Shown here piece after piece: positions 9,746 to 28,218 of a stretch of DNA of 41,915 nucleotides; the first letter of the stretch is position 1; each line of letters opens with the position of its first letter. The stretch lies in contig CALVVR010000010.1 in assembly GCA_944363915.1 (NCBI GenBank), forward strand, positions 1-41,915, in the 5' to 3' direction. The notes below the pieces were generated by a model that was given only the letters and a program-made list of their open reading frames with translations, made no database searches and was not told where the DNA came from. A program made the translations under genes and the position numbers. The stretch is from an uncultured Bacilli bacterium. GTDB lineage: Bacteria; Bacillota_I; Bacilli_A; RF39; UBA660.

Positions 9746-9842
9746 ATTTTTAACCTCCATTATCATTATATAATATTTTAAATAAAAAATAAATACATAT
9801 TTTAAAAATTTTTAGACAAAATAAAATTGAAAGGAAATGATT

Positions 9843-10052
9843 ATGATGAATATTAATATTAGAAAACATATTTTAGATAACTTTAAAGGAGCTGAAAAAG
9901 ATGAAATTAAAGCTTCAATCGAAGCTTCTATAAAAGAAAAAGATGAGATCACCTTGCCTGGATTAGGCGTTTTTTTTGAAGAATTATGGTGTCATAGCGA
10001 CGATAATAGTCGTGAATATATCTTAAATACGTTAAAAAATTCATTAAAATAA
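9843..10052 (+). CDS. sspI: Small acid-soluble spore protein, SspI-like
   Basis: 69 residues. The stretch LPGLGVFFEELWCHSDD, followed by a helix ending in LKNSLK, matches the SspI family, which reads LPGLGVLFE.IW and is of the same length. SspI is made in the forespore late in sporulation; its exact role is unclear. I start at ATG 9843, seven bases after AAAGG; ATG 9837 overlaps that site and ATG 9846 is also possible. A Cys (WCHSDD) is unusual for this family as I recall it. Function in this organism is inferred, since no sigma-G promoter could be assigned with confidence. Confidence 0.78.
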   Translation: MMNINIRKHILDNFKGAEKDEIKASIEASIKEKDEITLPGLGVFFEELWCHSDDNSREYILNTLKNSLK

Positions 10053-10080
10053 TAAAAAAAGGTTGACAAAATCAATCTTT
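10053..10080. terminator. Bidirectional terminator between sspI-like gene and ncRNA
   Basis: AAAGGTTG (10058-10065) pairs with CAATCTTT (10073-10080). On the minus strand it runs into seven T residues, and on the plus strand into a weaker TTTT. It can end both the sspI-like transcript and the minus-strand RNA. Confidence 0.65.
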
Positions 10081-10219
10081 TGAATTAGTATATATAGTAC
10101 CAATTCGGAAATATTCGAATTGGCGCTAGTATCACACTAGCCAACCCCTTTTTATTCTTTTATGCGAACTATTCCTCAGGGGGGAATAGTTCTTTTTTGT
10201 ACCCCTTTTATTCTAGTAC
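10054..10219 (-). ncRNA. Candidate structured RNA of about 165 nt, unidentified
   Basis: No coding frame spans this block, yet it has a promoter (10226-10255) and terminator in the right places on the minus strand. It contains three strong hairpins: GAACTATTCC/GGAATAGTTC (10166-10192), GCTAGT/ACTAGC (10125-10141) and CCAATTCG/CGAATTGG (10100-10123). A GGGGTT linker is clearly richer in G than its surroundings. I compared it mentally with 6S, SRP, tmRNA and RNase P RNA and found no match. The plus strand also has promoter-like boxes and a T run after the first-named hairpin, so the strand is not certain. Confidence 0.55.
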
Positions 10220-10225
10220 GATTCC

Positions 10226-10255
10226 ATTATAATATATAAAAAATAGCTAAGTCAA
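10226..10255 (-). promoter_or_regulatory. Promoter of the candidate RNA
   Basis: Minus-strand TTGACT (10250-10255) and TATAAT (10226-10231) are 18 bases apart. The expected transcription start is near 10219. Confidence 0.65.
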
Positions 10256-10290
10256 TATATTTTATTAATGGCAATGTCAAGATGTGTCAA

Positions 10291-10485
10291 TTATTTTAAC
10301 TTTATTTTATCTTTAGCTACTTCTTCTAAGGCTCTTCCGATTGGTTTTTTAGAAACATATTCATATTCTTTTAATTGATAATGATGTGTTTGTTCAATCT
10401 CATGAGCTCTTTTCGCTACGATATTTACTAATAAATATTTTGAACCAACTTGATTAAGTAGCTTGTCAATAGATGGATAAATCAT
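10291..10485 (-). CDS. rpoZ: RNA polymerase omega subunit
   Basis: 64 residues. MIYPSIDKLLNQVGSKYLLV, then AKRAHEI and KKPIGRALEEVAKDKI, follow the omega pattern (P.id.Ll..v.skY.Lv...AkRA..i, then .k..~.Al.Ei..g.i). Omega stabilises the beta-prime subunit during polymerase assembly. ATG 10485 has GGAAGGTGATT upstream; an in-frame ATG 24 codons earlier has no such site and lies in AT-rich leader. Usually rpoZ follows gmk; here it stands alone between a nuclease gene and an RNA gene. Confidence 0.9.
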   Translation of the reverse strand: MIYPSIDKLLNQVGSKYLLVNIVAKRAHEIEQTHHYQLKEYEYVSKKPIGRALEEVAKDKIKLK

Positions 10486-27767: not shown

Positions 27768-27950
27768 AAAATAAAAAGCAATTTATCCCAAAGGACGAAT
27801 TGCTCGTGGTACCACCTTAATTTGTAGCTTAACTACCTTTTTGACTATAACGCGTCACCAAAACAAACTCCAAAGGTGAATTCCTAAAAGATTATTTAAA
27901 TGTTTCCACCAACCACATTCTCTCTTGTAATAACTACTTTTAGTACTACT
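27768..27950 (-). promoter_or_regulatory. Phe-specific T-box riboswitch for pheST
   Basis: The minus-strand leader carries the T-box sequence AAGGTGGTACCACG (27805-27818), stem I elements (AGAGAA, GGTTGGTGG) and a specifier in GGAATTCACC, whose TTC (27878-27880) is a Phe codon. After the T-box, AGCAATT pairs with AATTGCT followed by TTTTTATTTT, the terminator that competes with the antiterminator. Uncharged tRNA-Phe should allow read-through into pheS. I see no promoter between this leader and the upstream gene. Confidence 0.9.
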
Positions 27951-27963
27951 TCTTTTTCACAGT

Positions 27964-28218
27964 TTATCTAACTCTTGATTGATCAATAGATTGTTCTTTA
28001 GTTGGAACAATTTCTTGACAAGCTGTTACTACTTCATTTAATCCCGGATGTGGATGAGAAAAACATTCTTCAGATAACATCCATGTAGTAACTTTATCAA
28101 TATTACTAGGACTTTTAAGTAAACACAACTTAATAATTCTAGGATAAGTATCTTTTAAAGTACTCTCGTTATTTAGGCCATTATTCATTAGTCTCATAAT
28201 ATCCATAAATTCATTCAT
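27964..28218 (-). CDS. Uncharacterised 84-residue protein
   Basis: No family recognised. Mostly helical and polar; a cluster of Cys (residues 32, 52, 67), ECFSHPHPG near 51-59 and a C-terminus ending SRVR. GAAGGAG gives a proper ribosome site, 12 bases after the stop of the upstream gene, so the two look like one unit. It may be a partner of the metallopeptidase-like protein upstream. The function is unknown. Confidence 0.55.
   Translation of the reverse strand: MNEFMDIMRLMNNGLNNESTLKDTYPRIIKLCLLKSPSNIDKVTTWMLSEECFSHPHPGLNEVVTACQEIVPTKEQSIDQSRVR

Follow-up and report, generated by a model that had tools for sequence, protein, structure and literature searches.

The RNA locus and its strand

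The window is a contig of 41,915 nt (GenBank CALVVR010000010.1, assembly GCA_944363915.1) from an uncultured Bacilli bacterium of the order that we take to be GTDB RF39. Comparison with related genomes indicates that a conserved RNA of about 105 nt is encoded on its plus strand, at about positions 10096-10200, between the genes sspI and rpoZ. It is probably a trans-acting small RNA (sRNA) gene with its own promoter and terminator, whose product would pair inside the mRNA of rsmH. The following features were located in this region:

9837-10052, plus strand: sspI, small acid-soluble spore protein, a neighbour outside the RNA (PF14098, E 2.9e-19)
10063-10091, plus strand: sRNA promoter TTGACA-17-TAGTAT (motif; TTGACA in 45 and a 17-nt spacer in 45 of 48 relatives)
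10096-10200, plus strand: sRNA (covariance-model match of 109.5 bits, E 4.6e-18, the sequence itself being part of the model)
10100-10123, plus strand: hairpin 1 (fold; stem changes in relatives)
10125-10141, plus strand: hairpin 2, GCTAGT-ATCAC-ACTAGC (fold; relatives; looped out in the proposed duplex)
10142-10165, plus strand: linker CCAACCCCTTTTTATTCTTTTATG, proposed main pairing segment (predicted unpaired; near-invariant in relatives)
10166-10198, plus strand: hairpin 3 with T6, intrinsic terminator (motif; stem changes in relatives)
10226-10255, minus strand: promoter-like site (motif; congener G046 by eye)
10291-10485, minus strand: rpoZ, RNA polymerase omega, convergent neighbour (PF01192, E 1.3e-14)

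The original prediction, made from the letters of the window alone, had described a compact minus-strand RNA of about 165 nt between an sspI-like gene and rpoZ. Its place is confirmed by the Pfam matches of the two neighbours, sspI lying upstream and rpoZ on the minus strand, and the three hairpins that it described are present at 10100-10123, 10125-10141 and 10166-10192. The strand and the length had to be revised. Of the four terminator-like hairpins between 9000 and 11500, the longest is the plus-strand one at 10166-10192, with 12 pairs followed by T6, and terminator-like sites are in excess within this interval (4 against 0.7 expected); promoter-like sites as a class show no excess there (15 against 17.1 expected). 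Both strands were found to fold better than their shuffles, the plus strand more clearly (z of -5.55 for 10095-10200 on the plus strand and -3.77 for 10075-10220 on the minus strand). The hairpin at 10053-10082, which would form the end of a minus-strand RNA, folds worse on the minus strand than on the plus strand (-4.6 against -8.1 kcal/mol). On the plus strand, transcription of the sRNA would start a few bases 3' of the -10 element.

The promoter that had been predicted on the minus strand does exist as a promoter-like site, TTGACT-18-TATAAT at 10255-10226, which matches in 11 of 12 positions and was also observed by eye in congener G046 (locus L009). A functional RNA on this strand is nevertheless scarcely credible, as the promoter scores on the minus strand beside the copies in 48 relatives equal those of shuffles (8.79 against 8.86). 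The strand was also read from the stems of alignment A3, which holds 48 of the 49 copies found in a sample of the class (G196 was left out). G.U combinations, which pair on the plus strand only, occur in 34 cells (4, 9 and 21 in hairpins 1, 2 and 3) while A.C combinations, which pair on the minus strand only, occur in 4 (0, 0 and 4), and this places the RNA on the plus strand. The site at 10226-10255, which is not conserved in the family, may possibly be the start of an antisense RNA confined to the genus.

Structure, distribution and gene neighbourhood

Stem conservation in relatives had been named as a check of the original prediction, and our alignment shows that the stems are kept with compensatory changes. 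Standard pairs fill 97.3% of the pair cells in the 48 copies of A3, and two-sided changes were observed in 151 cells against 41.5 in shuffles. They affect every one of the nine pairs in hairpin 3 and, in hairpin 1, four out of seven; hairpin 2 hardly varies. The linker that separates hairpin 2 from hairpin 3 reads CCAACCCCUUUUUAUUCUUUUAU in the window and is predicted to be unpaired; in 48 relatives its unpaired probability is 0.97-0.99 and its sequence is near-invariant. The loop of hairpin 3 holds AGGGG in 35 of 48 relatives. A pseudoknot between this loop and the CCCC of the linker can be drawn, but CCCC is also kept in the 13 of 48 copies in which AGGGG is missing. A T run follows hairpin 3 directly in 38 of 48 copies, and in nine of the other ten a second hairpin with a T run was seen by eye further on. 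Hairpin 3 is therefore more than a terminator. A partial second copy of the linker, CCCCTTTTATTCT (92% alike), was noticed at 10202-10214 on the plus strand of the window, directly 3' of the terminator.

The sRNA is widespread in the family and the order of the window's genome. A query stretch of 211 bases is matched at E<=0.01 in 180 of 193 family genomes, the window's own included. Covariance model R1, built on 63 sequences from copies fetched by a 30-mer of the core and from BLAST hits, matches 261 of the 288 genomes of the order and 224 of the 246 that are at least 90% complete. Some of the misses may be assembly gaps, as the genomes are mostly about 86-97% complete. In a draw of 395 genomes from the class, 49 match, all of them in the window's family; five more family members and the 341 genomes of other families gave no match. 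For this draw, 326 unlisted rows were assigned outside the family because the listing runs by kinship, and the order and class counts both come from searches over more than 40 genomes, in which stricter filters apply and weak matches are lost. The exact 30-mer was found in at least 118 stretches of named genomes. Among the 80 matches listed for it, most labels are Bacilli, Bacillales, Tenericutes, Mollicutes or Erysipelotrichaceae; a few read Clostridia, Lachnospiraceae and Actinomycetes, and one reads Candidatus Pelethosoma. This exact 30-mer also served to retrieve loci L038-L155, whose core is thus invariant by construction; six copies that lay too close to a contig end were discarded.

The open reading frames (ORFs) on either side were compared for 171 distinct copies: the upstream one is divergent in 142 of 158 cases, the downstream one convergent in 126 of 164. 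RecG and pyruvate:ferredoxin oxidoreductase occur most often as neighbours (Pfam check at one locus). A riboswitch or other cis-regulatory leader was ruled out because the downstream neighbour is mostly convergent and of many kinds; with neighbours that vary in this way, the RNA is a free-standing gene. A repeat element was ruled out as well, as the window's genome has one copy and a second model match there (E 0.0041) is this very place read in reverse. A small protein was rejected by eye, since the varying length of hairpin 1 leaves no start in frame. At L055:5051-5307, at L137 and at G228:C1:117051-117306 the sRNA gene occurs in tandem, the two copies being separated by about 155 nt. At L441:1-82 (G003), the sRNA gene is adjoined by the 3' end of an OLE RNA (RF01071, E 2.8e-5), which is truncated by the stretch and whose 30 bits fall short of the cut-off of 50.

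Complementarity and linked changes in rsmH

The gene rsmH, which encodes a 16S rRNA methyltransferase (Methyltransf_5), is a likely target of the sRNA. In the window's genome rsmH follows mraZ (MraZ) on a contig other than that of the sRNA, and 3' of it lie a DivIC-like ORF (below the Pfam cut-off) and a transpeptidase with PASTA domains, which together form a division and cell wall cluster. The lead came from a scan of 193 genomes for the linker complement AAAAAGGGGTYGRC, which was matched in 167, mostly at the sRNA itself with scattered extra sites. Two of the extra sites, in G005 and G059, occupy one and the same position in rsmH, where 23 nucleotides are complementary. A single shared 14-nt target AAAAAGGGGTYGRC was rejected since the extra sites are scattered, two being rsmH and several being promoter-like TTGAC sites or other genes.

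Apart from these two lead genomes, the genes used in the tests of rsmH were not chosen by the linker pattern. Codons 37-44 of rsmH in the window's genome carry the complement of the linker. GGGG was observed at this site in 28 of 52 in-group genes where synonymous resampling leads one to expect 3.8 (26 of 50 if the two lead genomes are left out), and AAGGGG is found in 23. The 68 out-group genes, which come from families without the RNA, have GGGG in 3 against 3.0 expected and AAGGGG in none. Over 19 nt, the in-group form AAA AGA ATA AAA AGG GGT TT is the complement of the linker (AACCCCUUUUUAUUCUUUU), and the residues at the site are of the IKRGFLFAFD type here, whereas out-group proteins mostly have the LTTGHLY type. 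Over the full length of rsmH, the linker pairs best at this site in 36 of 51 in-group but 6 of 68 out-group genes. In the window's genome it ranks first of 296 rsmH positions, at -16.8 kcal/mol, and 37 of 51 sites fall under the 1% level set by 19,928 background windows. The minimum of the column means is -16.1 for in-group rsmH, -8.3 for out-group rsmH (one gene with N omitted) and -10.4 to -11.9 for four other gene families, two of which consist of 9 genes only.

Adjoining the linker site, rsmH often reads TTC GCC (segment B, at the place of codons 45-49 in the window's genome). This is complementary to GGCGAA, which most relatives have on the 3' side of hairpin 1. Both rsmH segments are complementary to their parts of the sRNA in most genomes of the order, and they are ordered so as to fit one antiparallel duplex with hairpin 2 looped out. 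We noticed that segment B and hairpin 1 change together. For this comparison 51 rsmH-sRNA pairs were used, seven of the 52 in-group genes being omitted for want of a paired sRNA and six other genomes being added. Both TTCGCC and GGCGAA are present in 28 genomes, TTCGCC alone in 0, GGCGAA alone in 6 and neither in 17 (Fisher 7e-9). Cognate pairs have a mean longest match of 6.1 and non-cognate pairs one of 5.4; the cognate mean was reached in 0 of 10000 shufflings of the pairings. On an RsmH tree built without the site, nine changes in the same direction fall on the same branches, out of 16 and 12 changes in all, and 0 of 2031 simulations gave such a result. The association holds among genes with GGGG (p 0.0004) as well as among those without it (p 0.0016). 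Phe-Ala is encoded as TTCGCC in 28 of 32 genes at the site and in 0 of 16 elsewhere in the same genes. As an example of a compensatory pair, G052 has ATTCGCTT in rsmH and AAGCGAAT in the sRNA; G003 has the same sRNA letters and no rsmH partner.

Several observations weigh against rsmH as the target. In 15 of 51 genomes the linker is unchanged but pairs best at another position; in two of these the site ranks second or fourth, and most of the others have clearly lost it, as has congener G046. Six genomes have GGCGAA but no TTCGCC. The window's own rsmH is without segment B, and hairpin 1 of the window's sRNA reads ATTCGAA on its 3' side, so that segment B pairing would be absent. The out-group rate of best positions (6 of 68) exceeds the chance expectation of about 3%, and the lead itself arose from a scan of many genomes. 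The case for the pairing itself is one of coevolution, and repression is its presumed effect.

Other explanations were considered for the same data. A regulator of many targets that works like RoxS/RsaE through a C/U-rich seed, with ribosome-binding sites AAAAAGGGG as main targets and rsmH as one of many and perhaps a minor one, would explain why the linker is invariant even in genomes that lack the rsmH site, and for 13 of 40 further AATAAAAAGGGG sites an ORF of 60 aa or more begins 11-21 nt from the start of the site. Such sites are to be expected in any case, since ribosomes bind at GGGG. The 40 sites include few recurrent gene families, and AAAGGGGT-N(2,10)-ATG was found 239 times against 219 in the reversed control (41 genomes, p 0.37), by which ribosome-binding sites were ruled out as a general target; we consider this explanation unlikely. 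Hairpin 2 and the linker are near-invariant, and hairpin 2 covaries little. This would also suit an RNA that binds a protein there as a sponge or scaffold and for which the rsmH complementarity is secondary, as would the occurrence of the core by itself in one prophage and two viral contigs. A protein site does not predict the linked changes of rsmH and hairpin 1, which makes it very improbable. No greater probability is given to a constraint of rsmH's own, such as codon use or an mRNA hairpin (for example AAAGG with CCTTT), that merely resembles the sRNA. TTCGCC and GGGG are indeed associated within rsmH (20/8/5/18, p 0.0006), but TTCGCC tracks the GGCGAA of the sRNA within both GGGG classes and the constraint is absent in families without the sRNA.

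The phage-borne copies of the core were observed as follows. In a phage-like region of G004 (L279:7150-7260), hairpin 2 and the linker occur in sense orientation ahead of phage genes (terminase), hairpin 1 and the promoter being absent, and further such copies are found in the viral contigs L498 and L499. No tRNA gene was found by ARAGORN beside the phage and viral copies, which are perhaps a phage mimic of the sRNA. In G008, on the minus strand of L280:5990-6100, about 26 nt complementary to the linker and an arm of hairpin 2 lie in the leader of an ORF of 157 aa (no Pfam match), and a hairpin and T7 follow in an attenuator-like arrangement.

Relation to known RNAs and proposed action

That the RNA falls outside the common families, as originally predicted, agrees with the search of the locus against the Rfam 15 families, in which none passed its curated cut-off and permissive matches were at chance level. 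A permissive search of the loci of 19 relatives likewise gave none over cut-off for this RNA, and the sole Rfam match over cut-off in the window is a T-box leader (RF00230, 104.6 bits) at 27788-27969 on the minus strand. 6S RNA (RF00013) has no match at the locus and is encoded elsewhere in the genome (G000:C2:5560-5742), which rules out a replacement of 6S RNA. RoxS/RsaE, known from Bacillus and Staphylococcus (RF01820), is a small RNA of Bacilli with C-rich unpaired pairing segments. The sRNA described here shares these features and differs in its structure, its presence throughout an order and its likely target within the rsmH coding region; the RoxS/RsaE model is absent from the matches at E up to 10 for 9990-10340. 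SR1 of Bacillus subtilis pairs with ahrC in several segments inside the coding region, as is proposed here, although RNA and target differ (sequences were compared through Rfam alone). The Bacillus sRNA ncr1241 (RF02451) is also a short RNA with a similar terminator hairpin, but it scores 18.3 bits against a cut-off of 60 (E 1.1), with 24.6 bits (E 0.76) in one relative. UpsM of Rhodobacter sphaeroides is an sRNA derived from the 5' leader of the division cluster (PMC5089854). The present sRNA, unlike UpsM, has its gene outside that cluster and finds its complement in the rsmH coding region. StsR of Rhodobacter sphaeroides stands beside UpsM among the closest known systems. Neither the RNA itself nor an sRNA acting on rsmH in this group appeared in the titles and abstract openings searched, a literature from which subscription journals are mostly absent.

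The best reading is that the RNA represents a new family within a known kind, the trans-acting base-pairing sRNAs. As in other trans-acting sRNA genes, it has its own promoter and terminator and its likely target lies on another contig, and as in base-pairing sRNAs it is complementary to a coevolving target, though the complementarity is lacking in part of the genomes. In the proposed action, pairing would start from the open linker and a duplex with rsmH would form in cells about 110-150 nt inside the coding region, within the mraZ-rsmH-division operon. Pairing so deep inside rsmH would leave the start codon uncovered and expression would have to be lowered by another route. RsmH, and perhaps the genes behind it, would most likely be lowered because the duplex is offered to an RNase or because ribosomes are blocked. 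Hfq was found in 0 of 31 family genomes, and the pairing would therefore be independent of it. Further targets of the linker are probable, since other mRNAs or a protein must hold it constant where the rsmH site is lost.

A link to sporulation through RsmH is possible. MraW/RsmH affects a sporulation checkpoint in B. subtilis according to a preprint (PMC13317604), and RF39 is predicted to be spore-forming (PMC10868615). More broadly, we tentatively suggest that the sRNA might be a core riboregulator of the order, which would couple both the RsmH-dependent methylation of 16S rRNA and the operon for division and cell wall to one sRNA through two-segment pairing in the coding region and would shape the codons and amino acids of RsmH. 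The sRNA is present in about nine of ten genomes of a large and mostly uncultured gut group and yet stands outside Rfam, and thus a core regulator had gone unnoticed. A likely target was named by comparison alone, from the joint changes of two genes that are not linked, and the function can thus be tested directly. Should the pairing hold, the protein sequence of a conserved rRNA-modifying enzyme would be constrained by RNA pairing.
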